Shown in pieces: positions 45,563-60,490 of a stretch of 64,000 nucleotides of DNA. The number at the start of each line of letters is the position of its first letter. The stretch's first letter is position 1. The stretch spans positions 124,001-188,000 of the forward strand of contig NZ_JAERRB010000002.1 of the NCBI RefSeq assembly GCF_016735595.1, read 5' to 3'. The notes below the pieces were generated by a model. The model was not told the DNA's origin and made no database searches. It was given only the letters and a program-made list of their open reading frames with translations. This stretch comes from Chryseolinea lacunae. Lineage in GTDB: Bacteria; Bacteroidota; Bacteroidia; Cytophagales; Cyclobacteriaceae. A program made the translations under genes and the position numbers.

Positions 45563-46318
45563 ATGTCAAACCGAATTGCCCTCATCACCGGCGCCACGTC
45601 AGGCATTGGCGAAGCCGCTGCCCGCCTGCTGGCCAAACATAACTTCAATCTCATTCTCTGCGGCCGCCGGCAGGAACGGCTCACAGCCCTGCAGCAGGAG
45701 CTCTCAACCCAAACTAAGGTCACCACGCTTTCCTTTGAAGTGCGCGACGCTGCAGCGGTGAAAGATGCCATCGCCTCCCTGCCCGCAGCCTGGAAAGCCA
45801 TCGACGTGCTCATCAACAACGCCGGCAATGCCCACGGCCTCGACCCCATCCAAACCGGAAGTATCGACGACTGGGACGCCATGATCGACATCAATGTGAA
45901 GGGACTGCTTTATGTGTCGCGCGAGGTGATTCCCGGTATGACCGAACGTGCCTCCGGACACATCATCAACCTCGGCTCCATTGCGGGCAAGGAAGTCTAT
46001 CCCAACGGCAATGTGTATTGCGCCAGCAAGTATGCCGTAGACGCCCTCACACAAGGCATGCGCATGGACCTGAATGCCTTTGGCATCAAGGTAACGTCTA
46101 TCAATCCCGGCCTCGTGGAAACAGAATTTGCAAAGGTGCGCTTCAAGGGCAACGAAGACAAAGCGTCGTTGGTCTACCGGGGCATGAAGCCGCTGGTGGG
46201 CGAAGACATTGCCGACATCATGCTCTATGTGTTGCAGGCTCCTGCGCACGTGCAGCTTGCCGACATCACTGTGTTCCCCACAGCACAGGCCAGTGCCACC
46301 ATCGTGAAAAGAAGTTAG
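45563..46318 (+). CDS. Short-chain dehydrogenase/reductase (YdfG-like)
   Basis: A 251-aa NAD(P)-dependent oxidoreductase of the classical SDR family. It has the cofactor motif GATSGIGEAAA, the stabilising NNAG (INNAGNAHGLD), catalytic Ser in NLGSIAGKE, and Tyr/Lys in YCASKYAV. The sequence resembles YdfG-type 3-hydroxy acid/serine dehydrogenases (GLDPIQTGSIDDWDAMIDIN). Substrate is uncertain. Its end overlaps the convergent esterase gene by 4 bp, without room for a terminator. Confidence 0.9.
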   Translation: MSNRIALITGATSGIGEAAARLLAKHNFNLILCGRRQERLTALQQELSTQTKVTTLSFEVRDAAAVKDAIASLPAAWKAIDVLINNAGNAHGLDPIQTGSIDDWDAMIDINVKGLLYVSREVIPGMTERASGHIINLGSIAGKEVYPNGNVYCASKYAVDALTQGMRMDLNAFGIKVTSINPGLVETEFAKVRFKGNEDKASLVYRGMKPLVGEDIADIMLYVLQAPAHVQLADITVFPTAQASATIVKRS

Positions 46319-46965
46319 GCAAACGTGAGCAGCGTCTCGGTGTGCAGTTGATGTTTTCCTTCGAAGGTGATCACCTTGGGTGTGATACCCAGCCGGGCCG
46401 TTAACACTTTCATTTCTTCGAAGCGACTGTCGTTGAGAAAAGGGTCGGCTGTGCCGTGCACAAAATAGACTTCCTTGCCTTCGAAGAAATGAACACCCAC
46501 CTCCACGTTCATGTCGGGCGGCAACACACCTGCCCAGAGAATGAACCGGTCAAATTTTATTTTCCCATCCACCACCCACCGCGAGGCTGTGGCCGCGCCT
46601 TGCGAAAAGCCCAGCACCGTCACGGGCAGGTTTGGGTTGGTCACCACCGTGGCATAGACGGTGTTCAGGTAGGACAGGTAGTTCTGAATGTCGGTGAGGC
46701 GGTCTTCTTTGGTCATCCACGTGGCGCCTACGCGATCGGAAGCGCGGCCCGTGGGTTGAAGGCTGTCGGTATAGAAGCGTGAAAGGCCTTCGGGAGCCAC
46801 CACAAAAATGTTTTGCTGTTCCAGCGCACTGAAGTTTTTCAGGAAGTATTCGGCCAGCTGGCCATAGCCATGGAGAACAAACCAGATCTGCCGGGTTTGG
46901 CTGTTCAGTGTGCCCAGGGTGAAGTAGCGGGCGCGGTAGGAAATGGCGACATGATGTTGATCCAT
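46315..46965 (-). CDS. Alpha/beta-hydrolase esterase (phospholipase/carboxylesterase-like)
   Basis: Cytoplasmic serine hydrolase of about 216 aa. The ATG at 46965 (MDQHHVAISYRARYFTLG) is preferred because the upstream part of the frame crosses a terminator and the end of the next gene. Catalytic elements: the nucleophile in VLGFSQGAAT, Asp in VHGTADPFLND and His in EGKHQLHTET. An oxyanion-hole region FVLHGYGQLA is also seen. This is the YpfH/carboxylesterase type; substrate unknown. Confidence 0.85.
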   Translation of the reverse strand: MDQHHVAISYRARYFTLGTLNSQTRQIWFVLHGYGQLAEYFLKNFSALEQQNIFVVAPEGLSRFYTDSLQPTGRASDRVGATWMTKEDRLTDIQNYLSYLNTVYATVVTNPNLPVTVLGFSQGAATASRWVVDGKIKFDRFILWAGVLPPDMNVEVGVHFFEGKEVYFVHGTADPFLNDSRFEEMKVLTARLGITPKVITFEGKHQLHTETLLTFA

Positions 46966-46981
46966 GGCAGGCGAAGGTAAC

Positions 46982-47007
46982 AAAAAAAGCCCCGACAACG
47001 TCGGGGC
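46982..47007 (-). terminator. Rho-independent terminator after the 139-aa exported protein gene
   Basis: GCCCCGAC (46989-46996) and GTCGGGGC (47000-47007) form a perfect 8-bp stem with a 3-nt loop. On the minus strand it is followed by seven T (A run 46982-46988). Confidence 0.85.
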
Positions 47008-47033
47008 TTTCTGATGCTGGTTTGGTGAACTCC

Positions 47034-47453
47034 CTAGCGTTTGAAGCCTAGGGCGCTGCCACCACAATATCCGGTCGAACCATCGAAGGTGTACTGGATA
47101 TAGTAGATGCCCGTGGTGTTGCAAGGATAGGCAATGGCCGAGATAAACTGGCCGTTGATTTTGCTGGTCGCCACTTTGTTACGGTTGGAGTCGTAGAGGC
47201 TCACCACGATGCCGTCGGTGGGTTGTGCTGCCGCGCAGATGTTGATCATATATTGCGTGCCCTTGGTGAACACATATGAATACTCAACAAAGTCCTTTCC
47301 TCCTTTTTCGATTTTATAGCTCTTCAAGAAATTGAAACCGGCAGCAAGCTTGGGGATGCATTGGTTGCTTAAGGCTTCTGAGTTGCACTGTCCGATTACT
47401 TCTAATGTGCTTAGAACGAGAACGGATAGAACAATTGCAATTAACTTTTTCAT
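47034..47453 (-). CDS. Small exported Cys-containing protein, unknown
   Basis: A 139-aa secreted protein with a signal peptide (MKKLIAIVLSVLVLSTLEVIG, cut before QCN). The mature part has several Cys (CNSEALSNQC, NICAAAQP, AYPCNTT, GYCGGS) that may form disulfides. Strands such as EYSYVFTKGTQYMINICAA and GIYYIQYTFDGSTGYCGGSA suggest a beta-sandwich of the kind seen in small C-terminal carbohydrate- or pre-peptidase-like domains. No family is assigned. It is 19 bp downstream of the 300-aa lipoprotein gene, in one operon, and followed by a strong terminator. Confidence 0.72.
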   Translation of the reverse strand: MKKLIAIVLSVLVLSTLEVIGQCNSEALSNQCIPKLAAGFNFLKSYKIEKGGKDFVEYSYVFTKGTQYMINICAAAQPTDGIVVSLYDSNRNKVATSKINGQFISAIAYPCNTTGIYYIQYTFDGSTGYCGGSALGFKR

Positions 47454-47472: not shown

Positions 47473-48375
47473 TTAGCTTATAATCTTGTTTCTGATGGCG
47501 CTGGTGGTGGCCCGGATGTTGGTGATGTCTTCGGGCTTGATGTCGATCGTACTCGAGCTGTTGTCTTTGATGACCATAACGCCGTCCACAATTTCAAACG
47601 TGGATTCTTTGTAGGTATAGGTGATGTTTACCTTGTCATAGATTTTTTTCAGCTCTTCCATGTCAGTCAACAATGATGCCATGTTCTGGTCGCTTTCCTT
47701 GTAGAAAGAGAGAAGGAGCAGGATGTTTTCGAGAATGATTTTTTGCTCGCCGATGGTTTCTTGCAACTGCTTGTTGGTGGGGTTTGCCTGGGCCACTTCG
47801 CAGGTGATGTGAAGTGCTTCAAGCCAGCCGCCGGTGAGGAACAACACGCTGAGGTTCGAGCGGTTTTGCGTTTGCAGGTAGTGGTTGATGCTGTTGAAGT
47901 TCTGTGTGGTGATGAGCAGCAACGAGTCGAGGTTCTTGCTGTTGGTGGCCAGACGACCAATGGTTTCGATGTCGAAGAATTGGCCGATGTTCAAACCGTC
48001 GGCAAGTTCTTTGATCGACCCCATATACTTTACACCATCCTGATTCTGCTCATAGATGTTGGTGTATCCCAAATCGGTTCCGTACACGCCAAGGTTGAGA
48101 GCTTTCTTATAGTTGCTGTTGTACTTGGAGATATTGTCGGCCGAGTTGAGGTAGGACACGTTGTATTTCTTGCCCGACTCCTTTAGCAACACCGAAATTT
48201 CCAGTGGGCTGGGAATCTGTTGGAGGATATCGCCAATAACACCTTCGGATATGGAGGGCCCCTCAGCCTTGGCTGTGTCTAGCCCCTCGAGGAACGCCTG
48301 GTCATCCGTCTTTTTGGATGAGCCGCACGCGCTGCTGAAGAGTGCCAGAATAACCCCAATTATTACAATTCTCAT
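47473..48375 (-). CDS. Hypothetical lipoprotein
   Basis: A 300-aa lipoprotein (lipobox FSSACGSSKK, Cys17), probably periplasmic or on the inner face of the outer membrane. The mature part is mostly helical (for example GSIKELADGLNIGQFFDIE and KIILENILLLLSFYKESD) and I do not recognise a named family. It has a textbook Bacteroidota promoter just upstream and is followed by the 139-aa exported protein. The ABCG-type transporter gene upstream lies 68 bp away in the same direction, so functional linkage is possible. Confidence 0.75.
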   Translation of the reverse strand: MRIVIIGVILALFSSACGSSKKTDDQAFLEGLDTAKAEGPSISEGVIGDILQQIPSPLEISVLLKESGKKYNVSYLNSADNISKYNSNYKKALNLGVYGTDLGYTNIYEQNQDGVKYMGSIKELADGLNIGQFFDIETIGRLATNSKNLDSLLLITTQNFNSINHYLQTQNRSNLSVLFLTGGWLEALHITCEVAQANPTNKQLQETIGEQKIILENILLLLSFYKESDQNMASLLTDMEELKKIYDKVNITYTYKESTFEIVDGVMVIKDNSSSTIDIKPEDITNIRATTSAIRNKIIS

Positions 48376-48443: not shown

Positions 48444-51400
48444 TTATTTATTTTTCGGTTTTGCCTTGGGAAGGTTGATCTTTCCTTGAACCTTATCGAA
48501 GGAGTTGATCAGTTTGCGGAGCCATTCGAAGTACAGCGTGATGTAGAGCACCAGGGTCATGAGCCAGATCACGATGTTGTTGAACACAAAGGTGTCGATT
48601 CGCATGCCCAGAAACTCCTTCTGGGGGGCAAAGAACTGCGCGCGGTAGTCTAGCGGACCCGACGGCCGGGGATCCAGAAATACCGGGTTGATCTGCTGGA
48701 TCAGCTCGCCGTTATACTCCGTGATACGTTCTTTTTCCGTCACGTTTTTCACCAGGTCGGCCAGGCTTTCGTTGAAGTAAAGGTTCTTCACCACATTGGT
48801 GTTGTAAGGATTTTCGGTGGCGTTTTCCATCTGGAAGATCAGCTTCTCACGACCGGCCACGGCCTTGTTGTAGATGCCCTGATAGAATTTCTTATACTCC
48901 GCCAAAAAGTTTTCCAGCAGCTTGTCGAAGGCAGGCGAATATTTCGCGGGCGTCCATTCGGAAACGAGGAATTTTTCGAGTCCCTTCTTGTAGATATCAT
49001 GCTCCAGGTTGTCGTGCAGGATGCGCAGGTCTTTTGCGACAAGCTGTTGCACAGAGTCTCTTTTGTCTTTGTAGTTGTCGGCGATGAACTTCCGCTTCTT
49101 CTCAAGTTCGTCTACCAGAAACGACGAACGGAAGTCGGCCTGGTTCTCAATTTTCTCCAGCTTATAGAAAGGTTTCTCAAAGGAGTTGTTCTTGAATTGA
49201 TCGACAGCCAATGCTTCATAGGCCCAGCGCGACGCCATCATGTCGGCCACAATGGGCACCTTGCCTTTGGTGCTGATGATGTTGTTCAGTTTGTCGAAGC
49301 TGAACAGCAAGCCGCTCAGAATCATTTGAGGGATGAGCAACAACGGGATCATCACATACACCGTCACCGCCGAGTTGAACGCCGACGAGATGTTGAGCCC
49401 CAGCACACTGGCAAAACACGATACGGTGAACAGGATAAACCAGAACGGCAACAGCATGCTCCACTCAATTTCCAGAATGAGGTTGCCGATCAGGACAAAC
49501 GAAAAAGTCTGTACGGCCGAGATCACAAACAGGATGGTGATCTTCGACATGAGGTAGCTATTCCAGCTTAGGTTGAGGAATGATTCGCGGCGCAGGATCT
49601 TGCGGTCGCGGATAATTTCTTCGGCACTCACCGTGAGGCCCATAAACAACGCGACGATGATGCTCATCAGCAAAAACGCAGGGAAGTTGTCGTTGAAGCG
49701 GAACATGTATTCCTTTCCGCCGGGTGCGCTCTTGTATTTGATGATCACGGCCAGGATGATGGCCAGCAACGGCGCCTCCAGCAGGTTGATGAGGAGGTAT
49801 TGTTTGTTACTCAGTTTCGAAAGCGTGTCGCGCGTGGCGAAGATCATGGTTTGCTTCAGCTTGTTGGGCAGGCTGAGCGACTGGGGTGGTTCTTCGCGAA
49901 CATCCTCCACACGGTTGATCTTGAAACGGTCTTTGTACAGGTCATACCACTGTGGCGGTGTGATCTTGCGTTTGTTGGTGGGCTGACCATATTCGTCCAC
50001 CACCTTGGCTTCGATGATGTTGAAGATCTGTTCGGGGTTCACATTACCACAGGTTTCGCATTGCCCGCGGTTGCTGTCTACCTGGTGGGTCGATTTCTTG
50101 AAATAGGTTACGGCTTCAATGGGGGGACCGTAGTAGGCCGGGAAGCCACCGGTGTCCATGATGATCATCTTGTCGAACATCTTGTAGATGTCGGACGACG
50201 GTTGGTGAATGACCACGAAGATGAGCTTGCCTTTCAGCGACAACTCTTTCAGCAAGTCGATCACGTTTTCAGAGTCGCGCGACGAGAGACCCGAGGTGGG
50301 TTCGTCGAGGAACAGGATGGCCGGTTCGCGGATCAGTTCCAGGGCAATGTTGAGGCGCTTGCGCTGGCCACCGCTAATGGTTTTGTCGAGGGGATTTCCC
50401 ACACGCAGGTCTTTGCGTTGGTCGAGGCCCAGGTTTTCCAGCACTTCCATCACACGCTTTTGCAGTTGCTCTTCCGTGAAGGTGGCAAAGCAAAGCTTGG
50501 CGTTGTAGTAGAGGTTTTCGTATACAGTAAGCTCTTCAATCAGCAAATCGTCTTGCGACACATAGCCGATGACACCGTGAATTTTATCTTTTTGGGTGTT
50601 GATGTCGAAGCCGTTGATGAGGATGTTGCCCTTGGTGGGTTTCACCAGTCCGGCCATCACGTTCAGCAGGGTGGTTTTGCCCGCGCCGCTGGCACCCATG
50701 ATGCCGATGAGTTTTCCGGGGCCTTCCGAGATCATCACATTCCGCAACCCGATGCCGCCGCTGGCAAACTTCAGCTCTTCGATGTTCACGTTGAAACTGA
50801 GCCGGGTGGTTTTCAGTTCTTCGTTGAAGTTGGCCACCAGGTCGCTATAGTAGAGGGCGTCGCCGGCTTGTGTTTTGATGGTGCTGCCGTGCGAGAAGAG
50901 ATACACCCGGTTGGAGGGCATCGGAAACCCGTTGAGCGTGTTAGACTCTTCACCAAGGTATTTGGTGAAGTACATGTCAACACCTTTCACGCGCATGAAC
51001 ACGAGCGTGCCTTCGATGTGACCGTGCACGTGTTTATAAAGTTTGCCTTCTTCGGCTTTGGCGGCCTTGTCGAGCAACAGGATGTCGGCGTAGTTGAGGG
51101 TGCTGGCGTCTTCGGAGATAACGAAGTTTTCGATGAGTTGGTATTCGTATTGTCCGATGTTAAACACGGTGGAGGCCGTGTTGATGATCTCCATGCGCTG
51201 GGGCGTGAAGTTCTTGTCGGTGCTCACCAGTTCGAGGAGCTTGATAACAACGACTACCTTTTGTTTTTGGGTGAGGGTTTTGTTGATCTTCTTGCAAATG
51301 CCGAGGGTCTTCACCGAGTCCTTCACGGAGGTGAGCTTCGACTTGCCTTCTTCTTCCTCTTTGCCGTAGCCCGAAAACTGATCGTAGAGGTCGAGGTATT

Positions 51401-51536
51401 CTTTGACTGAATCCTGGTCTAGTTCCGTTTGAAAAAAATTGATCACGAACTGGCGCTCGCGAACCGTTACTCCGCCATCTTGTTTCGTGATAATTGCAAA
51501 AAGTTGGGTGAGGGCTTTGAGTATTTCTTCACTCAT
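48444..51536 (-). CDS. ABCG-type fused ABC transporter with TerB-like N-terminal domain
   Basis: A 1030-aa half-transporter with ATPase before permease, as in eukaryotic White/ABCG proteins. Residues 1-150 are an all-helical TerB/DjlA-like domain (GVTVRERQFVINFFQTEL, ELVSTDKNFTPQRMEIINTA). After a linker, the ABC domain (about 250-480) has Walker A MGASGAGKTTLLNVM, signature TISGGQRKRLN and Walker B AILFLDEPTSGLSSRDSE. A CxxC-bearing linker (CETCGNVNPEQ) follows. An ABC2 membrane domain begins near residue 590; five TM segments lie before about 770, a long charged extracytoplasmic loop spans about 790-990, and a last TM (VFNNIVIWLMTLVLYITLYF) closes it. Substrate unknown. The two small exported proteins downstream could be partners. 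Confidence 0.87.
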   Translation of the reverse strand: MSEEILKALTQLFAIITKQDGGVTVRERQFVINFFQTELDQDSVKEYLDLYDQFSGYGKEEEEGKSKLTSVKDSVKTLGICKKINKTLTQKQKVVVVIKLLELVSTDKNFTPQRMEIINTASTVFNIGQYEYQLIENFVISEDASTLNYADILLLDKAAKAEEGKLYKHVHGHIEGTLVFMRVKGVDMYFTKYLGEESNTLNGFPMPSNRVYLFSHGSTIKTQAGDALYYSDLVANFNEELKTTRLSFNVNIEELKFASGGIGLRNVMISEGPGKLIGIMGASGAGKTTLLNVMAGLVKPTKGNILINGFDINTQKDKIHGVIGYVSQDDLLIEELTVYENLYYNAKLCFATFTEEQLQKRVMEVLENLGLDQRKDLRVGNPLDKTISGGQRKRLNIALELIREPAILFLDEPTSGLSSRDSENVIDLLKELSLKGKLIFVVIHQPSSDIYKMFDKMIIMDTGGFPAYYGPPIEAVTYFKKSTHQVDSNRGQCETCGNVNPEQIFNIIEAKVVDEYGQPTNKRKITPPQWYDLYKDRFKINRVEDVREEPPQSLSLPNKLKQTMIFATRDTLSKLSNKQYLLINLLEAPLLAIILAVIIKYKSAPGGKEYMFRFNDNFPAFLLMSIIVALFMGLTVSAEEIIRDRKILRRESFLNLSWNSYLMSKITILFVISAVQTFSFVLIGNLILEIEWSMLLPFWFILFTVSCFASVLGLNISSAFNSAVTVYVMIPLLLIPQMILSGLLFSFDKLNNIISTKGKVPIVADMMASRWAYEALAVDQFKNNSFEKPFYKLEKIENQADFRSSFLVDELEKKRKFIADNYKDKRDSVQQLVAKDLRILHDNLEHDIYKKGLEKFLVSEWTPAKYSPAFDKLLENFLAEYKKFYQGIYNKAVAGREKLIFQMENATENPYNTNVVKNLYFNESLADLVKNVTEKERITEYNGELIQQINPVFLDPRPSGPLDYRAQFFAPQKEFLGMRIDTFVFNNIVIWLMTLVLYITLYFEWLRKLINSFDKVQGKINLPKAKPKNK

Positions 51537-51564: not shown

Positions 51565-51631
51565 AAAAAAAATATCGGTTACCAGCCCATAGAATCAACG
51601 GAAGAATTCTACCAATGGCCTGGTAACCGAT
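51565..51631 (-). terminator. Terminator of the signalling operon
   Basis: ATCGGTTACCAG (51574-51585) and CTGGTAACCGAT (51620-51631) form a perfect 12-bp stem; the 34-nt loop contains further pairing (AGAAT/ATTCT). On the minus strand it is followed by a run of T (A run 51565-51572). It lies directly after siaC. Confidence 0.78.
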
Positions 51632-51650: not shown

Positions 51651-52013
51651 TCAGTAGGTTTTGAACTCGAAGGGGATCTCCACCAACTCAGAAAACTCCT
51701 GACCGGCTTCTTCCATATCTTCATCGTCTTCATGGAAATACCACAAGATCTTCATGCCTTTGATGTCTTCCAGCGCGGAAAGAACATCCAATATCAACTT
51801 GGAAGAGGCAGTGTTGAAGTACTCGAGTTTGAAAACGAAATCCGTGGAGGGGTTGGATTCGCTGCCATAGGCTTCGATCCATTCCAGCACGGGACGGTAG
51901 AATTCCGCTGAGTCTTCGGGCAGCGAGCGGCCGCTGATTTCAAATATTCCGTTCTTTTTATCGAGAATTATCTTTGGGGTATCTTCCGTTCCTTCGAGAT
52001 TTAAAATTTCCAT
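51651..52013 (-). CDS. siaC: SiaC-family regulatory phosphoprotein (DUF1987)
   Basis: A 120-aa switch protein. In Pseudomonas, unphosphorylated SiaC activates the diguanylate cyclase SiaD; the SiaB kinase phosphorylates it and the SiaA phosphatase reverses this. The family segments SGRSLPEDSAEFYRPVLEWI and FKLEYFNTASSKLILDVL are clear. The predicted phospho-threonine falls at Thr68, the same residue number as in Pseudomonas SiaC. It is last in the operon, 32 bp after siaB, and before a strong terminator. No GGDEF gene is nearby, so its output target differs or is encoded elsewhere. Confidence 0.88.
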   Translation of the reverse strand: MEILNLEGTEDTPKIILDKKNGIFEISGRSLPEDSAEFYRPVLEWIEAYGSESNPSTDFVFKLEYFNTASSKLILDVLSALEDIKGMKILWYFHEDDEDMEEAGQEFSELVEIPFEFKTY

Positions 52014-52045
52014 GGTATCAGTCTATTTTAAGTTATTCATCAAAA

Positions 52046-52594
52046 TTATTCGTTGTCGCGCGGCACGTTCACTTTCAAGCAGAAGAAGCAGTATTCCGCA
52101 TTCATTTCAGGAAACTCAAATTCCAGTTTGCCTCCGGACTTGCGGGCCATGTCCACAAAACCTAATCCTGCGCCGCCTTTTTCCGAGATGGTGGTGTTCT
52201 TGATGATTTCCTTGTACAGTTCCTTTAGTCCATCCTTATCCAACCCGTTGATCTGTTCCAGGTTTTTCTGGAGCTTGGGCACGTTGGTTTTCTGAACGGG
52301 GTTTCCCGACATGATGCTGTAACGGTTCGCTTCCTTGCCGATCAGGAAGATGGCGGCATGACTGCGTATTTGTCCGTCGACCAGCTCGTCGCTATGCTTC
52401 ACAATGTTTTGAAGCGCCTCGACCATAACGTTGAACACCTTGCGTTTGATGCTTGATTCTTCCCCTGAAGAGTCAAGGTTTCGCTCGGCCATGGACAGTA
52501 TGGATTTGGTGCTCTCCTGGGTGAAATCACCCTGATACACCAGAATCAGTTTCTGCGACATCATGGTGCGGTGCAGGTCATAAATAAAATTCAT
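52046..52594 (-). CDS. siaB: SiaB-family protein kinase
   Basis: A 182-aa kinase of the GHKL/anti-sigma-kinase-like SiaB family, expected to phosphorylate SiaC. Visible landmarks: KLILVYQGDFTQESTKSIL, the N-box-like helix KVFNVMVEALQNIVKHSDE (Glu and Asn for Mg-ATP) and the G-box region SEKGGAGLGFVDMARKSGG. The C-terminal strand pair EFPEMNAEYCFFCLKVNVP ends the fold. It lies between the PP2C phosphatase gene (95 bp upstream) and siaC, reproducing the order siaA-siaB-siaC. Confidence 0.87.
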   Translation of the reverse strand: MNFIYDLHRTMMSQKLILVYQGDFTQESTKSILSMAERNLDSSGEESSIKRKVFNVMVEALQNIVKHSDELVDGQIRSHAAIFLIGKEANRYSIMSGNPVQKTNVPKLQKNLEQINGLDKDGLKELYKEIIKNTTISEKGGAGLGFVDMARKSGGKLEFEFPEMNAEYCFFCLKVNVPRDNE

Positions 52595-52689
52595 GCTTCA
52601 GAAGATTAGATGATTAAGTTTGTGGTTCACTAAGATATACGTTTTATCCTTTAAAACCTTCCGGCACGTGACCGGACAGGGTGCTCGTT

Positions 52690-55600
52690 TTAAAATTTAA
52701 TACCAATCAACAACACGTCGTCCGTTTGTTTGGTGTCGCCGCGCCAGCCTTCCCATTGCTCGTCGAAAACATTCATGGCCGACGGCATCGACTGCGTGTG
52801 AACCTGCTCGATGATTTCGCGGGTTCGCTTCGGACCGAACTTGCGACCCTCCGTGCCTCCGAACTGATCCGGGAATCCATCGGAACTGAAATAGATCGAA
52901 TCCCCCTTCTCAAGCTTGATCTTCGTATTGGTAAAGTTAGTCTGGTTCTTAAAAATACCGCCTCCAATGGGGAATTTATTTCCCTTCACTTCCTCCATCA
53001 CACCATTCTTCATGATGTAGAGCGGTCTGTGGGCACCGGCATATTCCACTTCGCCGGCCGCCATGTTGATCTTGCAGAGGGCAATGTCCATCCCATCCTT
53101 GGTGGTGGCGTCTTCGTCCTGACGTAGGGTGGTCGTTACGCCTTCGTCCAGCAAATCCAGGATCTTGCCCGGCTCGGTAATCTTGCGGCTGCGCACAATG
53201 TCGTTCAGCAGGAAGTAGCCGATCAACGAAAGGAGGGCACCCGGCACACCGTGACCTGTACAGTCTACGGCCGCGATGAAGATATCGTCCTTGATCTGAA
53301 CAAACCAGGGGAAGTCTCCGCTCACCACGTCGCGTGGTTTGTAGAGGATAAACGAATCGGGCAGCGCCTTGTTGATCACCCTCGAGTTGGGGAGGATGGC
53401 GTTCTGAATGCGCTTCGCGTAGTTTATACTTTCGGTGATCTTCTTGTTCTTGTTCTGGATTTCGAGCTCGATCATTTTCCGCTCCGTGATGTCGTGCGAC
53501 ACCACCAGCACCGACTCCAGTTTGTTCGATTCGTCGAACTCGGGAATGGCGTTCACCTGCATCACACGTTTGCCCATTTCGGAGGCAAAGTCGACTTCGG
53601 AGGAGGCCTTTTCGTTGGTGTTGTTCACTTCTTCCACCACCTTCAGCCAGCCGTCGAGGATGGAGGCATCCAGCTCGGCTTCTTTCACTTTCTGGTTCAG
53701 GAAGAACGCCGGTTTCTTGCCGGTATATTCCTCGATAACGGGGTTGATATACGATATGGATTCGCCTTCCAAACGCGTGATAAGGTCGAGCGAGTTTTCC
53801 GAAAGGGCCTGCATTTTCGAACGCATCCGTTGCTCCTGTTCGGCACGTCTCCGCTCGGTGATGTCGCGCGAGTTGAGGATGAAGCCGTGGATGGCCTGGT
53901 TCGACATGAGGTTCCGGCCGGTCGATTCAATCCAGATAAAGCTTCCGTCTTTTGCACGGTATTCGTACTGCACCGTAGCTTCTTCGTCGGGCGAAGCTTT
54001 CATTCTCCGGAAAATTTCCTTGAACGTGTCGCGGTGATCGGGGTGCACCTTGTCGATGTCGCTCTTGCCGATCATTTCTTTCTGGCCATAGCCCAGGATC
54101 GATTCTACCGAAGGAGAAATGTAGCGGATGCTTTCGTCTTCTTCGTAGATGGTGATCACTTCCGAAGCGTTTTCCAGCAACAGCTGCATACGTTTCTGGG
54201 TGCGGTTCACTTCTTCGATCTGTTCTTCCAGTTTTTGGTTGGAGCGTTGCAGTTCCTCTTGTGTGGCCTGCATCTCTTCGGCATTCTGGCGCAACACTTC
54301 CTGCTTTTCCTTCAGCTCATTACTCATCTCCTGCGACTCGGCCAGCAGCTTGCGCGTGCGTTCGTTCACTTTGATGTTAAAGATGGTACGGGCCAGGATG
54401 AGCGAGAGCTCTTTTACAAAATTCACCTGCGAGGTGTCGAACTTCTTAAAGCCGGCAAACTCCAGCACGCCATACACTTCTTCGTTGGTGATGAGGGGCA
54501 CAATGAGAATGCAACGGGGGCGCTGATCGCCGAGAATACCCGACGTGATGGTCACATAGTCGGCGGGGATTTCGGTGCGCAGGATGGTATCTTTTTCGGC
54601 GGCGGCCTGGCCCACAAGACCTTCGGCAAACTTGAACTTCGCCTTCAAATATTTCTTTCTGGAATAAGCATGGCTGGCGCGCATTTCGATGATGGGGCGC
54701 TTCGGATCGTCGTCGTTCACGATATAGAACGCGCCCTGAATGGCACCGATCTTGGCCAGGATAAATTTGATGACGTCTTCGCCCAACTCGTCGGTCGAGT
54801 CGTGCATACGCAGAATTTCGCTGATCTCGGCCACACCTCGAACAATCCAGTTGCGCTCTTTGTCGCGACGTTCGTTTTCGATGAGGTTGTTGCGCATGTT
54901 GATGAGCGACATACCCAAAATGTCGTTGTCGCTGGCCGGTTTGAAGGCTGTGTCGTATTTGCCTTCACCAATGCGTTGTGCGAAATCGGCGCTGTTCTTC
55001 AGCGACTGCACCAGCTCGTCCACTTTCGTGCTCATCTGGCCAAATTCGTCGCCGCTTTTCTCGCCCGTCGATTCGGGCAGCACTCCCTGAGCAACCAAAC
55101 CCAGCGTGTTGCGCATGCCGTAGAGCGGGCGGATCATAGACCGCGCAAACATCATCGACAGCAACGTGGCCAGGGCCAGGATGCAAAGACCGGCATAGAT
55201 AAACACGGCCGTCAGATCAGACGCCTGTCCGTCGGCTTCTTCCTGATCGATCTTGGCAATGAGGGCCAGGTTGGCCAGTTCGATGCGACGCGACACTTCC
55301 AGCACAGAATGTCCACGATAGTCCACCCCTTTCAGGGCGATGCTCTTGCCTTCAAACACGGGGGCAAAGGCCGCTACAAATTTGTCTTTCGGGTCGCGTG
55401 GGTCAAGCAGTTTGATGGCCGACGTGGTGTCGGAACGCAGGGGGCTCACCAACCCAACCTTGCGCGAAATAGGATCTTCGCGCGCAATGATCACCTCGCC
55501 GGTTTGTCCGAGACCCTGGTAGGTCTTCAGCGCACGGTAGGGGATGTTGAGGTTGAGTTTAATGAAGATGAGGTGTTGTGTGCCGGCGTTGTCGGTCACG

Positions 55601-56190
55601 GCACCGGCAGCATACGTGTAGTAGTAGTTTTTCTTTTTGTCGATCAGGAAGGCCGAGAAATACAGATTGGACTTGGCGCGGTCGAAGGTCACACCGTCGG
55701 GATCGACGAGGGCGCCTTTCACGTTGGGATCGGTCGAAGCCTGCACGGCTCCAGTAGCAGAGGTGATAATGATCTCGTCAACACCAAGCAGTTCTTTTTG
55801 CGCAGCAAGATAGTCTGACAGCGATTGGTCGGTGGTGCTTCCGGTGGTCAGGATGGTGTCGGCGCTCACTTCGGGGGTGTCGGTTGCGGGCGGGCCACCC
55901 ATCAGGGCGTCCATGCCGGCATCAGGTGCGGCAGAAGCAGCAGCAGCATCGCCGCCTTTGATACGGTCGGAGCCTTGCAGCATGCGAACAGCAACAGCCG
56001 CTCTTTCAAAATACGAATTGAAATAGGCCGCCCGGTTGTCGGCCACCACGTTGAGGGTGGTGGCAAACTTTTCCTGGTTGGCTTTCAGGTGGTAGTCATA
56101 GCTGAAAAAGCTGATGGCAGCCACGGCCACGAGAGACACAACCAGGATGAGGATGGTGATCTTTGTGCTGATGTTTATGCTTTTCATCAT
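52690..56190 (-). CDS. Large membrane PP2C/SpoIIE phosphatase with HAMP, GAF and two PAS domains (SiaA/RsbU-like)
   Basis: A 1166-aa sensor phosphatase. Rough layout: TM1 (11-33), a periplasmic Cache-like sensor region with an Ala-rich insert (35-330), TM2 (335-357), HAMP (358-410) and a GAF domain (460-610, EGLVGQAAAEKDTILRTEIP). A coiled coil (LRQNAEEMQATQEELQRSNQ) is followed by PAS (680-790), PAS (805-910) and a SpoIIE-type PP2C domain (950-1166). Metal-binding residues are intact: VVSGDFPW, VDCTGHGVPGA, SSDGFPDQFGG and QTDDVLLIG. It should dephosphorylate SiaC, with several input domains tuning activity. It is far larger than Pseudomonas SiaA, which has no GAF or PAS domains. Confidence 0.9.
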   Translation of the reverse strand: MMKSINISTKITILILVVSLVAVAAISFFSYDYHLKANQEKFATTLNVVADNRAAYFNSYFERAAVAVRMLQGSDRIKGGDAAAASAAPDAGMDALMGGPPATDTPEVSADTILTTGSTTDQSLSDYLAAQKELLGVDEIIITSATGAVQASTDPNVKGALVDPDGVTFDRAKSNLYFSAFLIDKKKNYYYTYAAGAVTDNAGTQHLIFIKLNLNIPYRALKTYQGLGQTGEVIIAREDPISRKVGLVSPLRSDTTSAIKLLDPRDPKDKFVAAFAPVFEGKSIALKGVDYRGHSVLEVSRRIELANLALIAKIDQEEADGQASDLTAVFIYAGLCILALATLLSMMFARSMIRPLYGMRNTLGLVAQGVLPESTGEKSGDEFGQMSTKVDELVQSLKNSADFAQRIGEGKYDTAFKPASDNDILGMSLINMRNNLIENERRDKERNWIVRGVAEISEILRMHDSTDELGEDVIKFILAKIGAIQGAFYIVNDDDPKRPIIEMRASHAYSRKKYLKAKFKFAEGLVGQAAAEKDTILRTEIPADYVTITSGILGDQRPRCILIVPLITNEEVYGVLEFAGFKKFDTSQVNFVKELSLILARTIFNIKVNERTRKLLAESQEMSNELKEKQEVLRQNAEEMQATQEELQRSNQKLEEQIEEVNRTQKRMQLLLENASEVITIYEEDESIRYISPSVESILGYGQKEMIGKSDIDKVHPDHRDTFKEIFRRMKASPDEEATVQYEYRAKDGSFIWIESTGRNLMSNQAIHGFILNSRDITERRRAEQEQRMRSKMQALSENSLDLITRLEGESISYINPVIEEYTGKKPAFFLNQKVKEAELDASILDGWLKVVEEVNNTNEKASSEVDFASEMGKRVMQVNAIPEFDESNKLESVLVVSHDITERKMIELEIQNKNKKITESINYAKRIQNAILPNSRVINKALPDSFILYKPRDVVSGDFPWFVQIKDDIFIAAVDCTGHGVPGALLSLIGYFLLNDIVRSRKITEPGKILDLLDEGVTTTLRQDEDATTKDGMDIALCKINMAAGEVEYAGAHRPLYIMKNGVMEEVKGNKFPIGGGIFKNQTNFTNTKIKLEKGDSIYFSSDGFPDQFGGTEGRKFGPKRTREIIEQVHTQSMPSAMNVFDEQWEGWRGDTKQTDDVLLIGIKF

Positions 56191-56213
56191 ACGCGTTGGA
56201 CGCTAGAAATTTT

Positions 56214-56975
56214 TTATGCTTGAGTAATCTTGTCGGCAATCAGGGTTGCGGCTTCTTCCACAAACTTGCGTTGATCTTCGCTGATGGAATTGAAAGAAGC
56301 AATCTCCAGAATGCCCACCACCTGTCCTGTTTTCTTCAATGCCTGAATCAACAAGAACTTGGGCGATGCACTGCCGAGGCCCGAAACAATTTTGATGTAG
56401 CCTTCGGGCACGTCGTCTACATAGAGCGTTGTGCCGTTGGCGGCGGCCTGGCCGATAAGGCCTTCGCCAAATTCAAAACGGATCACCGTGCTTTCGGCAA
56501 GGCTCAGGGCATAGCCGGTTTTCAGTTCGGCAAAGCGCTTGCCGTCTTCTTCCACAATGCGGTAAACGGCGCCTTGTCCGGCGTCGAGTTGTTTGCAGAT
56601 GGCCTGCAGACCGGCTTGCAGAATTTCTTTTTCACCTTTGGCATGCGTGAGGCTGGCGGTCACCGTTTCGAGGCTGATGGTGGTTTTGCCGGCTTGTGCG
56701 GCTTCCTGCTGGGCCAGTGAATCTTCGAGCGCGCGATCGCGAAACACAATGATTTCCTGCTTGTAGCGCAGGGCGTTGTTGAGACTCAACGCGCCAATCA
56801 GAAATGTGACACCGATGGCGATATACACGTTGAGAAATTCAGGCTCATAGCCCCGTGCCAGCTGCAGCCCGCCGGGGAGGGAATAGATGAGGTACAGCGT
56901 TACCCCCGCGCCCAGCACAAACAGTGTGGCCAGCATGAGGCTGATCTTGTATCGGTCGTTGAGAATGCCTGTCAT
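56214..56975 (-). CDS. Membrane-anchored GAF-domain protein
   Basis: A 253-aa protein with two N-terminal TM helices (LMLATLFVLGAGVTLYLIYS and VYIAIGVTFLIGALSL), a short linker and a cytoplasmic GAF domain (about 100-250, EGLIGQAAANGTTLYVDDVP then VGILEIASFN). The GAF domain closely resembles those of the two large sensors in this locus. There is no kinase, phosphatase or HAMP output, so it probably works by interaction. The start overlaps the cheB stop by 4 bp. Confidence 0.82.
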   Translation of the reverse strand: MTGILNDRYKISLMLATLFVLGAGVTLYLIYSLPGGLQLARGYEPEFLNVYIAIGVTFLIGALSLNNALRYKQEIIVFRDRALEDSLAQQEAAQAGKTTISLETVTASLTHAKGEKEILQAGLQAICKQLDAGQGAVYRIVEEDGKRFAELKTGYALSLAESTVIRFEFGEGLIGQAAANGTTLYVDDVPEGYIKIVSGLGSASPKFLLIQALKKTGQVVGILEIASFNSISEDQRKFVEEAATLIADKITQA

Positions 56976-57565
56976 CGATATTGTTTATCTAATTCTTTTA
57001 AAAATTCTACAATCTGGTCCACCTTCATCACATAATCGATTTCCGTAGCAGCCAGGGCTGCCTTGGGCATGGTGTCGATCATGCATTCGCTGGGCTCTTG
57101 CACAATGGTTAACCCATTGCGGTCGTGAATGTGCTTCATGCCCAAGGCGCCGTCTTTGTTGGCGCCCGAGAGCAGAATGCCCACCAGCTTTTCTTTATAC
57201 ACAAAGGCACAACTGCCAAGTGTGATGTCGATGGCCGGCCGCGAGTTGTTCACCATCTCCTCGGTAGAGAGCGCGAACGTGTGACCCAGTTCTACCGACA
57301 TGTGATAGTTGGCCGGAGCCAGGTATACACTGCCTTTCTTTATGTTCTCCTTGTCGTGTGGTTCGGTGACCTGCACAACGCTCTTGATCGATAGCGCTTC
57401 CACAAAGCCATTGCGCACGTGCTTGAGTCGGTGCAAGCACATGATGATTGGCAACGGAAAGCCTTTGGGCAATTGCGCCAGGATTTTGACTACACCCTGA
57501 AAGCTGCCTGCTGACCCACCGATAACAACGGCCTTATAGCTGTTATTTAGGCTGATTTTTTTCAT
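56972..57565 (-). CDS. cheB: CheB-type methylesterase without receiver domain
   Basis: A 197-aa protein consisting only of the CheB catalytic domain (protein-glutamate methylesterase/deamidase). The triad is intact: Ser18 in VIGGSAGSFQG, His45 in IMCLHRLKHV and Asp138 in LSGANKDGALGMK. The usual N-terminal response-regulator domain is absent, so activity cannot be controlled by CheA phosphorylation. It lies 18 bp after cheR. No chemoreceptor gene is in the window; the target may be the coiled-coil regions of the neighbouring sensors, which is inference. Confidence 0.9.
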   Translation of the reverse strand: MKKISLNNSYKAVVIGGSAGSFQGVVKILAQLPKGFPLPIIMCLHRLKHVRNGFVEALSIKSVVQVTEPHDKENIKKGSVYLAPANYHMSVELGHTFALSTEEMVNNSRPAIDITLGSCAFVYKEKLVGILLSGANKDGALGMKHIHDRNGLTIVQEPSECMIDTMPKAALAATEIDYVMKVDQIVEFLKELDKQYR

Positions 57566-57583
57566 TCGTCAATAGACAACTTC

Positions 57584-58405
57584 CTAATCTTTTATTTTCT
57601 TATAAATCTTCTCTTCATTGTTCACGACGATGAAGCGGTTGGCATAATCACACCAAATCAACGACTCCTTCGATCCAATGGCCAGGTATCCGTATTTAAA
57701 TAAACTCTCGTGGAATTTTTTAAGCACCTCATTCTGCAGGGTTTGGTTGAAGTAGATCATCACGTTGCGGCAGAGAATGAGGTCAAACTTGTTGAAGATG
57801 TCGCCCATCACCAGATCGTGGCGGCGGAACGATACGTTCATGAGCAGGTCCTTATTGAACACGGCCATGCCGTTCTCTTCATGATAGTAGTCTTTGAACG
57901 ATTTTGTGCCCTGGAACCGGATGTAGTTCTTTTCATTCAGTTCCATGTTTTTGATGGGGTAGGTGGCGGCTTTCGCGCGCTCCAGGATATTCACATCCAG
58001 ATCGGTGGCAATGAGCGTCACATCTTGCAGCACGCCCATCTCTTTCAGCATAATGCACATGGAAAGCACTTCTTCGCCCGACGAGCAGCCGGCATGCCAG
58101 ATCTTGAATTGCTTGTGATTAAGCATGATGGCGGGCATGATTTCTTCGCGCATGATGCGCCAGAAACTGGGATCGCGGAACATCTCGGTCACGTTCACCG
58201 TCAGTTCGTCGAGGAACTCGTTGATGAAAGAGGGGGTTTCGTTCAGCTTTTTCAGAAGACCATCAACTGAGAGTTTCTTCAGTTCCATGATCCGGAGCAC
58301 GCGTCGCTTGAACGAAGACATCGCGTAGTTCCGAAAGTCATAGTGATACTTCTGGAAAATGAACTCAGAGATCCGTTTAAGGTCGGCAATATCAATGTCC
58401 AACAT
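57584..58405 (-). CDS. cheR: CheR-type protein-glutamate methyltransferase
   Basis: A 273-aa SAM-dependent methyltransferase. An N-terminal helical CheR_N domain (DLKRISEFIFQKYHYDFRNY) precedes the catalytic domain with SAM motif KIWHAGCSSGEEVLSM, the acidic strand LIATDLDVNILERA and DLILCRNVMIYFN. It lacks the C-terminal pentapeptide-binding extras and TPRs of some CheR proteins. First gene of the cheR-cheB-GAF-siaA-like-siaB-siaC series, with a perfect -7 box (58428-58435) and a palindrome upstream. Confidence 0.92.
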   Translation of the reverse strand: MLDIDIADLKRISEFIFQKYHYDFRNYAMSSFKRRVLRIMELKKLSVDGLLKKLNETPSFINEFLDELTVNVTEMFRDPSFWRIMREEIMPAIMLNHKQFKIWHAGCSSGEEVLSMCIMLKEMGVLQDVTLIATDLDVNILERAKAATYPIKNMELNEKNYIRFQGTKSFKDYYHEENGMAVFNKDLLMNVSFRRHDLVMGDIFNKFDLILCRNVMIYFNQTLQNEVLKKFHESLFKYGYLAIGSKESLIWCDYANRFIVVNNEEKIYKKIKD

Positions 58406-58427
58406 GGTGGTCTTTTAAAAAGGAACT

Positions 58428-58435
58428 CAAAATTA
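58428..58435 (-). promoter_or_regulatory. Candidate -7 promoter box for the cheR-sia operon
   Basis: TAATTTTG on the minus strand is a perfect TAnnTTTG, 22 bp upstream of the cheR start codon. No TTTG occurs at the expected 19-bp spacing, so an activator may be needed. Confidence 0.45.
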
Positions 58436-58476
58436 ATTTCTGCCTGATACTACCCGACGAATTTCGGCGCTAAAAC

Positions 58477-58490
58477 TTACACGCGTGTAA
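58477..58490. repeat. Perfect palindrome upstream of cheR, possible operator
   Basis: TTACACGCGTGTAA is a 14-bp perfect palindrome about 42 bp upstream of the -7 box, the place where an activator would bind. Its form is typical of a dimeric regulator site. No regulator is identified. The rest of the 58406-58627 gap shows no coding sequence. Confidence 0.4.
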
Positions 58491-58627
58491 TCTGACCGGA
58501 AGCATTTTATTTTTAAAGAAAATCAAATTAACCCATTCGAACTAATTCCCTGAACAAAAGGACGTTAAAAAATCAGCAGGAAGCAAACCTCGGCCCGTCA
58601 TTCAGCGCAGGCTTTGGGTGATTCCGC

Positions 58628-60490
58628 TCAACGCCCCGACTTCTTGTCCAATTCTTCTTGTGTTATTTGTAGCGCTTGCAAGCTGACGCTTAGGGATTTC
58701 GCCACTTCTTCTGCCAGCGCCCAGTCGTTGCCGTGCGCAGGCTGTTGGGCCAGGCGTGTTTCGAGGGCTTCGGCCTGCTGTTGATACTCGCGCTCCTTGC
58801 GCGACCACTCGGCCTGCAGCGCTTTGATCTCGGCTTCGCTGTGGCTTGGTTTAGGTTGAGCGGTCTCCAGTTCGCGGATGCGGGCCACATAGCTGTTCTC
58901 TTTGCGGGCCACTTCTTCCTGTGTGGCTTGCATTTCTTCCATGTTCTGCCGCATCTCTTCTTCCTGGGCGCGCATCACTTCGGTTTGCTCCTGGAATTGT
59001 TCGATGAGGTTGCGGTTCTTCTGGGCCGCCGTGACCGACGCCAGGGTGGCTGCAATGGATTCGCTCAGCTTTTCTACAAACGCGATCTCGTGGGGCTGGT
59101 AGGCATTGAACGAGGCCAGCTCGATGATGCCATACACTTGCGTGTCTACTTTAAGCGGCACCATCAGAATGGAGCGCGGTGGCGCATCGCCAAGGCCGGA
59201 GGTGATCCGGATATATTCTTCCGGTATGTCGGAAAGGTAGGTGGTTTCTTTTTCCAGAAAGGTCTGACCCAGAATGCCTTCGCCCAACTTAATCTTGCGT
59301 TCTTCAAATTTTTTGATGTCAAACGCGAAGAGTGAGGTCAGCAGCAGGTGCTTGTCGTTGGCGTCTTCTTCGTTCAGCAGATAGAGACCTCCTTGATTCG
59401 AACCGGTGTATTGCACCAGGGCCGCAATCACCTTGTCGCCCAGCGTCACCAGGTTGTCGTTCGATGAGCGGAGAATGTCCACAAACTTGGCGAGGCCTTC
59501 GTTGGCCCACTGGCGCTTGCGCTCCTCTTCGTTCATGGCCTTGAGCTTGTTTTGCATCTCGATGAGCGAGTCGGCCAGCTTGTTCTTGCCCGCTCTGTAT
59601 TCACTGTCGAACGCCTGCTGATAGTCCATGTCCAATCGTCCTTCACCGATGGCCGTCACAAAGTCGGTTGCATCTTTCAGGTTCTCGATGGTGCTGTTGA
59701 TCTGGCGCGCCAGGTGCCCGATCTCGTTGGTGGCGAAGCCGTTGGTGTGCGTGTGGTTCTCGGTGTTGTCTTCTATGCGCTGAATGGGTTTCAACACAAA
59801 GCGGTCGAATGCATAGAGCAAGCCGAACAACAAGACCACATCGACGATAAAAAACACCGCGAGCCAAACCATCACGGTTTGCTGGCGTGTGGCAATTTCG
59901 TCTTCCAGGTCTTTAATGAGTCGGTCATACCAATGCGACACGGAGATCCACTGTGCTTCGAAGGCACTTTTCGCTTGTGTGTATTTGGGATTGACTTGGG
60001 TGGTGACGATGGGTGCGGCAGGCTCGGCGGCGGCGAGCGTGTCGGCCACAGGTGCCGGTGCGGCGGTGGTCACGGTCACAGTCTCTTTTTCCGTCAGCAG
60101 GGTGTTGAGCGAAGTTTTGTAGCGGGTCCAGTATTGGAAAAGGTTGTCGTAGGTGATGCGGGGCAGGCGCGACAGCGGCGCGAGGAAAAAGTCGGTCCCG
60201 TCTATTCGTCCACCCTGAGCCAGCGTCTGAAGCACGTGCTCCTGTTGGTCCAGGTCGGACACTAATTGTGTCCCAAGGTCTGCGCGTCCGTGAAGATATT
60301 GTTGCACCTGCAGCGCCACTTCCTGGTTTCGCACCTGGATGCTGCGGGCAAAGTCGATCTTGCGTTCTGCTTCGTTCAGGGTTTGGATGGTGTGCCGCAC
60401 GGCGAAAAACTCGGCGACAAAGAGGATGGCCATCAGCACCAGGGCATAGATGCCCCACTGCTTCAGTGTTGTGTTGCGCCAAAAGTTCAT
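58628..60490 (-). CDS. Membrane sensor with HAMP, GAF and coiled coil, no enzymatic output
   Basis: A 620-aa protein; the ATG at 60490 (MNFWRNTTLKQWGIYALVLM) is preferred over upstream in-frame starts that add a non-family tail. TM1 is about 12-32; a periplasmic four-helix-like region (35-225) contains a Thr/Ala/Pro-rich spacer; TM2 is about 228-250, followed by HAMP (250-305), a linker and a GAF domain (about 360-500, EGILGQTFLEKETTYLSDIP). A long coiled coil (500-620) contains MRQNMEEMQATQEEVARKE. There is no kinase or phosphatase domain and no classical MCP hairpin, yet the coiled coil and the cheR/cheB genes next door make it a candidate target of methylation. Confidence 0.82.
   Translation of the reverse strand: MNFWRNTTLKQWGIYALVLMAILFVAEFFAVRHTIQTLNEAERKIDFARSIQVRNQEVALQVQQYLHGRADLGTQLVSDLDQQEHVLQTLAQGGRIDGTDFFLAPLSRLPRITYDNLFQYWTRYKTSLNTLLTEKETVTVTTAAPAPVADTLAAAEPAAPIVTTQVNPKYTQAKSAFEAQWISVSHWYDRLIKDLEDEIATRQQTVMVWLAVFFIVDVVLLFGLLYAFDRFVLKPIQRIEDNTENHTHTNGFATNEIGHLARQINSTIENLKDATDFVTAIGEGRLDMDYQQAFDSEYRAGKNKLADSLIEMQNKLKAMNEEERKRQWANEGLAKFVDILRSSNDNLVTLGDKVIAALVQYTGSNQGGLYLLNEEDANDKHLLLTSLFAFDIKKFEERKIKLGEGILGQTFLEKETTYLSDIPEEYIRITSGLGDAPPRSILMVPLKVDTQVYGIIELASFNAYQPHEIAFVEKLSESIAATLASVTAAQKNRNLIEQFQEQTEVMRAQEEEMRQNMEEMQATQEEVARKENSYVARIRELETAQPKPSHSEAEIKALQAEWSRKEREYQQQAEALETRLAQQPAHGNDWALAEEVAKSLSVSLQALQITQEELDKKSGR

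Follow-up and report, generated by a model that had tools for sequence, protein, structure and literature searches.

In the genome of Chryseolinea lacunae (7.9-Mb in 29 contigs, GCF_016735595.1) we analysed a window of 64,000 nt, corresponding to positions 124,001–188,000 of the forward strand of contig NZ_JAERRB010000002.1, which carries on its minus strand an island where the methylation enzymes CheR and CheB stand beside a partner switch of the SiaA-SiaB-SiaC type and an ABCG-type exporter. The linkage of cheR and cheB with the sia genes is a family-level trait, and CheR and CheB probably tune the phosphatase sensor of the switch instead of chemoreceptors. In the direction of transcription the order is HGAF, CheR, CheB, GAFm, SiaA-like phosphatase, SiaB, SiaC, ABC transporter, Lp300 and p139, with successive gaps of 222, 18, −4, 23, 95, 32, 114, 68 and 19 bases, the negative value being a 4-base overlap of the GAFm gene with cheB. 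The features, in window coordinates, are the following:

58628–60490, minus strand: HGAF, GAF coiled-coil sensor of 620 residues (aa), with an N-terminus read from the sequence as membrane-type; optional member (GAF_2/GAF, Pfam)
57584–58405, minus strand: CheR methyltransferase, 273 aa (PF01739, PF03705)
56972–57565, minus strand: CheB methylesterase domain, receiver-less, 197 aa (PF01339)
56214–56975, minus strand: GAFm, GAF protein of 253 aa, with N-terminal segments read as hydrophobic (GAF_2)
52690–56190, minus strand: SiaA-like sensor phosphatase, 1166 aa (PF07228 SpoIIE/PP2C, GAF, PAS, PAS)
54250–54279, minus strand: candidate methylation segment EEMQATQEEL, residues 638–647 of the SiaA-like coil (computed from the start of the reading frame at 56190)
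52046–52594, minus strand: SiaB-family protein kinase, 182 aa (NF038262, above cut-off)
51651–52013, minus strand: SiaC, 120 aa, with Thr68 (PF09345)
51565–51631, minus strand: terminator-like hairpin with a T8 tract in the siaC-ABC gap (from the sequence)
48444–51536, minus strand: ABCG-type half transporter, 1030 aa, with a TerB-like and FHA-like N-terminal region (ABC_tran, ABC2_membrane)
47473–48375, minus strand: Lp300, predicted lipoprotein of 300 aa, lipobox read as LFSSAC; kept in relatives
47034–47453, minus strand: p139, 139 aa, with an N-terminus read as signal-peptide-like; kept in relatives

All the island genes named in a previous sequence-only reading of this DNA are present on the minus strand at these coordinates, with matches to their families. 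The span that it had drawn is correct for the part covered; instead, the conserved neighbourhood is longer and reaches about 47034, including the ABC transporter, the lipoprotein and the 139-aa protein. The HAMP domains that it had assigned to the SiaA-like protein and to HGAF did not find a Pfam match in either of them; NCBIfam sensor-kinase models span the SiaA stretch, and a HAMP is putative.

The partner switch was identified as follows. SiaC matches PF09345 (E 5e-39, 133 bits) and the solved SiaC in 6kko and 6k4f; its phosphosite, T68, aligns with that of Pseudomonas aeruginosa SiaC, and this threonine, already called conserved, is found in 105/105 sequences. SiaB matches PF19788 (E 2e-42), NF038262 (179.6 bits, against a cut-off of 85) and the solved SiaB in 6kko, with E59 and N63 invariant in all of the 110 sequences. 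The SiaA-like protein is composed of an N-terminal sensor, a GAF domain (465–601), a coil (602–666), two PAS domains and the PP2C phosphatase (SpoIIE match 969–1165), in which the eight site residues tested, metal-binding, are invariant in 104/104 sequences. All three proteins missed the NCBIfam equivalog cut-offs (SiaA 207.5 of 700, SiaB 84.1 of 225, SiaC 85.3 of 150 bits). The absence of SiaD was borne out, as GGDEF, the diguanylate cyclase domain, had zero matches across the host genome, and a diguanylate cyclase was accordingly rejected as the output. The host has a second SiaC (L017, 9894–10256), 59% identical, which adjoins a TonB_C protein and showed no SiaA or SiaB match within the 17.7 kb taken. 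Variant islands were also observed (L081, L091, L102 and L107), in which SiaA is shorter (~880 aa) and an extra open reading frame (ORF) of 372–382 aa lies between HGAF and CheR.

CheR matches PF01739 (E 2e-42) and PF03705, and CheB matches CheB_methylest, PF01339 (E 2e-48). In agreement with the description of CheB as receiver-less, its 197 aa hold the methylesterase domain alone, with no receiver match in Pfam. The CheR residues R77, E111, D135, R213, N214 and Y218, which we take to be those of the S-adenosylmethionine site and of motifs, are invariant in 94/94 sequences; likewise S18, H45 and D138 of CheB, presumably the catalytic triad, with positions set by alignment, are invariant in 96/96. 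The enzymes are therefore under selection, and both are predicted to be catalytically intact at the residues tested.

To score the linkage we used tblastn with the window proteins in two samples, which may share genomes, so that the counts are not additive. The 80 named loci are the best of 261 by SiaB similarity and hence orthologues by design; by SiaB, the named relative nearest to the host is Chryseolinea serpens (98%), and behind it come further Bacteroidota, many under Cyclobacteriaceae or Flammeovirgaceae. In C. serpens DSM 24574 the seven island proteins share 75–99% identity with those of the window across the parts that matched. The family sample, less biased, comprises 60 SiaC regions from 43 genomes hand-picked among the matches listed; SiaC was present in 213 of 390 genomes. 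CheR and CheB stand beside orthologous sia genes at 65 of the 66 named loci with at least 6.5 kb upstream. In the family sample 27/60 regions hold orthologous sia genes, and neither CheR nor CheB is missing from any of the 24 that extend far enough upstream. Three further genomes of the family, from the phylum sample, carry the island with CheR, CheB and sia in 3/3. The other 33 family regions have CheR/CheB in L208 alone and the ABC gene in none. Outside the family, CheR was found in 0/29 SiaC regions, some of them cut by contig ends, and CheB in one (L148 in G389) with a weak match (24%, E 3e-11), on the opposite strand and ~3 kb from SiaC, which we do not consider an island. In the longer region taken there (L273, G389:C3:416000-435900; another family), a separate CheA-CheR cluster lies 11–16 kb from SiaB-SiaC. 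Thus, the expectation of a gene order conserved across Bacteroidota holds strongly within the family and fails beyond it.

A second, different che-sia combination is present in the same family, with a normal methyl-accepting chemotaxis protein (MCP) as receptor. At L208/L272 (G522:C154; L272 676–11896) a che operon consisting of CheA, a CheW-domain protein, an MCP, CheR, a histidine kinase, CheD, a receiver-bearing CheB, a receiver protein and CheC is followed on one strand by SiaA (321 aa), SiaB and SiaC.

What CheR and CheB act on can be approached from the genomes in which the island occurs. The sequence-only reading had reported CheA, CheW and MCPs as missing, which is correct for the island and not for the genome, where three MCPs and 6 CheW-family matches, at three places, lie elsewhere, each cluster with its own CheR and CheB match. 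The searches with hidden Markov models (HMMs) covered seven chosen genomes each for MCP and CheW, not a random sample. In four island-bearing genomes (G186, G049, G146 and G667, completeness 95–100%) neither MCP nor CheW had a match genome-wide; G493, searched for CheW alone, had no match; G473 had both. Since MCP and CheW matches are lacking in those four, CheR and CheB should act there on another substrate. G186 has in its whole genome a single CheR and four proteins with the coil motif described below.

In a CheR tree the island CheRs form one clade (support 96/98), sister to the CheRs that stand beside CHASE3-GAF hybrid kinases of the host genome (86/82), while those of L021, L022 and L208 group apart. 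The CheR of L020, from a CheA/MCP cluster, sits on a long branch beside the island and kinase-linked CheRs, because of which the deeper branching order is unsure. At L018 (5087–10511) and L019 (5954–10245) CheR adjoins CHASE3-GAF hybrid histidine kinases with three receivers, L018 having in addition a 199-aa CheB match; these are possible candidates for methylated kinases.

These data bear on the idea that the two enzymes work for the classical MCP/CheA arrays of the cell, their genes lying here by historical accident. The three MCPs and the three places with CheW-family genes in the host would provide such arrays, and the L020 CheR does branch near the island group. On the other hand, each MCP/CheW cluster is equipped with its own CheR and CheB match, the CheRs of L021, L022 and L208 are separate, and the four genomes contradict the idea unless the HMM searches missed divergent MCPs. 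We consider this explanation very improbable.

The best candidate substrate of CheR/CheB, as judged from its residues, is the coil between GAF and PAS of the SiaA-like protein, which reads ..RQNAEEMQATQEELQRSN.. and was identified by reading the sequence. Here E639 and E646 are invariant in the 96 island SiaA proteins, E638 is kept in 95 and E645 in 93. The glutamates occupy two adjacent heptad positions, along a hydrophobic line formed by L626-L633-M640-L647-L654-V661-M668. The host MCPs contain the segments EEISSSMEQM, EEMATGSEEL, EEVSSSMEQM and EEMSSNAEEL and, in the third MCP, EETAAGTQQV. The SiaA segment EEMQATQEEL resembles all three, its pairs being spaced by seven residues and separated by small ones. 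The edges of the motif expression were chosen by the analyst, and two of the five MCP segments have N at the small-residue place or need a looser expression.

With the strict expression the motif was found in 91/96 island SiaA proteins, the misses being L208 (the 321-aa SiaA without the sensor part) and the variants L121, L129, L195 and L219. Among SiaA-like proteins outside islands it was found in 10/52, nine of which are orthologues from islands truncated by a contig end, and the remaining one (L159) looks like chance; after removal of these nine and of five orthologue fragments, the value for true non-island proteins is 1/38. Kinase-like ORFs gave 1/39, and the 1035 unlabelled, mechanically called ORFs of at least 200 aa (383,743 residues) gave none. 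Since the island SiaAs form one orthologous group, this contrast speaks for constraint and not for a repeated origin. Genome-wide co-occurrence of motif and CheR was discarded as evidence: all 4 motif genomes have CheR, but so do 250/395 genomes.

The upstream sensor HGAF carries a comparable coil, EEMRQNMEEMQATQEEV, at residues 511–527. Its counts are based on ORFs, as those by tblastn were inflated by SiaA cross-hits. An HGAF-like ORF is upstream of CheR in 44 of 95 islands, with the strict motif in 41 of these 44, and within 2 kb upstream in 42 of the 89 islands with at least 2.5 kb available. HGAF does precede the series in the window, as had been read, and is an optional member of the island. 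Because about half of the islands lack it, SiaA is the likelier common substrate. GAFm was rejected as a methylation substrate, no methylation-like motif being present in 101 homologous ORFs.

A shorter version of the coil pattern gave eight matches in the host genome (control 0), namely SiaA, HGAF, a CheB-CheR fusion and five other proteins. It could then be that the main targets of CheR and CheB are reached in trans, namely HGAF and further sensors with GAF/PAS domains and a coil, SiaA being a mere neighbour with a generic EE coil. The six further proteins outside the island, one of them the CheB-CheR fusion, and the single CheR of G186 facing four motif proteins, are in favour of this possibility. 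In 47/89 islands, instead, no HGAF-like ORF is found upstream, and there the cluster protein bearing the motif is SiaA; moreover, little space separates the genes from cheR to siaC, and terminator-like sites are few in the three gaps tested. All considered, we regard an action mainly in trans as unlikely.

To evaluate the possible transcripts, terminator-like structures were counted in the gaps of the islands. They are absent from 92 CheR-CheB and from 100 SiaB-SiaC gaps and present in 3/108 SiaA-SiaB gaps, compared with 46/102 SiaC-ABC gaps of similar length (4 after one shuffle each) and 7/97 ABC-Lp300 gaps. In the window, the siaC-ABC gap forms a 12-bp stem followed by the T8 tract and folds as a whole at −33.7 kcal/mol. 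Upstream, they were found in 16/38 HGAF-CheR gaps vs 9/38 in shuffles, the gap of the window folding at −14.6 kcal/mol, and in 22/36 cdd-CheR gaps vs 6 in shuffles. A scan with the sigma-70 consensus, which may not suit this host, gave 9 sites vs 11.5 in shuffles. It is likely that cheR-cheB-gaf-siaA-siaB-siaC is one transcription unit; a single operon running through the exporter is weakened by the siaC-ABC hairpin, and the exporter group may be transcribed separately, up to a hairpin with a T7 tract just downstream of p139. Beyond this hairpin lies an alpha/beta hydrolase ORF (46315–47124), and ORFs of ~217 aa occupy the same place in many relatives.

The exporter is the best candidate for the output of the SiaC switch and is the part overlooked by the previous reading. 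The ABC gene lies on the same strand near SiaC at 72/72 named, 27/27 family and 3/3 phylum loci with at least 4.2 kb downstream, usually directly after SiaC, with gaps from 30 to 1211 bases. Among loci that extend 6 kb or more downstream, Lp300 follows at 68/69 named and 25/25 family ones, and the counts for p139 are identical. Lp300 gave no family above cut-off and no useful fold match (model pLDDT, the predicted local distance difference test, 80), and p139 has no Pfam family.

Towards its C-terminus the ABC protein resembles ABCG transporters, ABCG2 chains aligning over 273–750, and its start is nearly invariant. A model of the first 279 residues, built on an alignment of 37 rows, reached a pLDDT of 86: in Foldseek searches the helical part of the model resembles 2h5n and 2ou3, of the TerB type, in line with a Pfam TerB match of 23.2 bits, just under the cut-off of 24.4. 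For the beta-rich part FHA domains rank first, many at a probability of 0.8–1.0, with a best E of 0.016 and none below 0.001. Pfam found no FHA match in the protein, and the sole PDB hit of the sequence profile is the FHA of MEK1, a weak one (E 0.079).

In the phylum sample this N-terminus was found in 7/395 genomes, strong in four members of the family, which have in addition two weaker paralogues each, and in G045, of another family; the match is weaker in G347 and marginal in G236. In G045, which has no CheR, MCP or CheW match in its genome, the ABC gene and that of an Lp300 homologue lie in convergent orientation to SiaB-SiaC. A third family is represented by G347 (L270, G347:C72, 2–7705), where the genes of a related ABC protein and of a lipoprotein run convergently to a partner switch of STAS, an HATPase_c_2 kinase, kinase-like HATPase proteins and a REC-SpoIIE phosphatase. 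Therefore, in three families this type of exporter lies close to a partner switch, whether CheR is present or not.

The proposal of an exporter gated by SiaC derives from the analogy with Pseudomonas SiaABCD, where, according to PMC8457831, SiaD is bound and activated by SiaC in its unphosphorylated form, which a phosphate on Thr68 prevents. SiaC could also control something else, for example a regulator of transcription or of the cell surface encoded elsewhere, the ABC gene being a conserved but independent neighbour. The terminator-like hairpin after SiaC, the convergent order in G045 and the existence of ABC paralogues without sia neighbours are compatible with this. Against it stand the same-strand proximity at every orthologous locus with enough sequence, the recurrence of the neighbourhood in G045 without CheR and in G347 with another partner switch, and the suggestion, put forward with the SiaC-SiaD structure, that proteins of the DUF1987 (SiaC) type act as modulators of adjacent ones (PMC8457831). 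A target elsewhere is, in our opinion, an appreciable possibility, still on the unlikely side.

Alternatively, the FHA-like domain might read phospho-Thr68 directly, with phosphorylated SiaC as the active form. This would agree with the FHA-like fold in Foldseek and the weak MEK1 profile hit, as well as with Rv1747 of Mycobacterium tuberculosis, an FHA-containing ABC transporter that binds a phosphothreonine partner (PMC5549992). Rad53, however, uses Arg70 and Ser85 to bind phosphothreonine (PMC5549992), whereas no 90%-conserved Arg or Ser occurs in residues 150–201 of the ABC protein, where we would place the phosphate-binding site, and in Pseudomonas it is the unphosphorylated form that binds. 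We judge this mode of action improbable.

Returning to the SiaA coil as substrate and the exporter as output, the island could be a signalling pathway in which neither an MCP nor CheA is required. In it, E639/E646 and their neighbours in the GAF-PAS coil of the SiaA-like protein would be reversibly methylated by CheR and the receiver-less CheB, and HGAF, where present, would be methylated likewise; methylation would set the gain of the sensor, as in chemoreceptors. The SiaA-like PP2C and the SiaB kinase would then set the phosphorylation of SiaC Thr68, and unphosphorylated SiaC would bind a neighbouring output, most likely the TerB/FHA-like N-terminal region of the ABCG exporter, which would replace SiaD. 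For the model as a whole, from methylation through SiaA/SiaB and SiaC to the exporter, with the enzymatic steps and the SiaC-exporter contact inferred, we see the arguments as evenly balanced. That the phosphatase is itself a methyl-accepting receptor, with CheR/CheB adaptation acting on a Ser/Thr partner switch and through it on the gating of an ABCG exporter, in cells without MCP and CheW, appears to us somewhat less probable than that. The previous suggestion that coil methylation tunes the SiaC cycle is favoured by the MCP/CheW-less relatives that carry the island and by the invariant MCP-like heptad pattern, and it may hold.

Several observations weigh against this pathway. The siaC-ABC hairpin, common among the islands and present in the window, possibly makes the exporter a separate transcript, and the genes convergent in G045 and G347 are hence not on one transcript. 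The sole named exception to the linkage, L126, keeps SiaB-SiaC-ABC-Lp300 without SiaA, GAFm, CheB and CheR and has other genes upstream, and the SiaC regions outside the family lack CheR. The L020 CheR, from a CheA/MCP cluster, is placed next to the island and kinase-linked CheRs, although on a long branch. The island SiaAs, being one orthologous group, give a motif contrast without independent events, and the motif occurs also in GAF/PAS proteins outside the island, the four checked having GAF and some of them PAS, Cache or CHASE3. Finally, the host has ABC paralogues without sia genes (L267, 4261–8324, and L268, 6852–10446). One of these two paralogues adjoins an Lp300 homologue.

Glutamate methylation by CheR and CheB is familiar mainly from arrays of chemoreceptors, whose memory it provides, and relatives that keep both enzymes intact at the tested residues but have no MCP/CheW match offer a natural setting in which to look for another substrate. 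Should SiaA prove to be that substrate, this adaptation chemistry would be attachable to a Ser/Thr phosphatase, and the outputs of SiaC-family proteins would be extended to a new kind, a transporter, in a bacterium without GGDEF match. What is predicted is narrow and concerns two glutamates of a single coil, one threonine of SiaC and one N-terminal region of the exporter.

The components are known and their wiring appears to be new; in the literature searched, which left out most subscription papers, no description was found of a linkage of CheR/CheB with SiaABC or of SiaC with an ABC exporter. Wsp and Frz are chemosensory pathways with alternative cellular functions. Pathways of this kind are treated in PMC3447774, CheR has been reported to methylate the non-receptor PhoP, at an arginine (PMC8546571), and in Campylobacterota che clusters with a STAS gene have been described, in which the switch is proposed to act on the chemoreceptor (PMC9239204).

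Like chemosensory pathways, the island has a CheR/CheB pair intact at the tested residues and an EE heptad coil resembling those of MCPs; unlike them, it holds no MCP, CheA or CheW, its CheB lacks a receiver, and four relatives have no MCP/CheW match. The CheRs beside the CHASE3-GAF hybrid histidine kinases of L018 and L019 are sister to the island CheR, but there the output is a histidine kinase with receivers, here a PP2C/SiaB/SiaC switch. With Rv1747 the island shares an ABC exporter beside threonine-phosphorylation signalling, with an N-terminal region whose FHA-type fold is putative here; it differs in that the FHA-like domain lacks the conserved phosphate-binding Arg/Ser and is preceded by a TerB-like domain, and in that the neighbours are SiaB and SiaC and not a Hanks kinase. 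The system most similar to the switch is SiaABCD of P. aeruginosa, with the same PP2C phosphatase, SiaB-family kinase and SiaC Thr68, and a SiaC expected to modulate a neighbouring output. The island departs from it in a genome without SiaD/GGDEF match, in the CheR and CheB of the cluster, in the GAF/PAS/PAS domains and EE coil of its SiaA-like protein, and in the ABCG exporter that follows SiaC.

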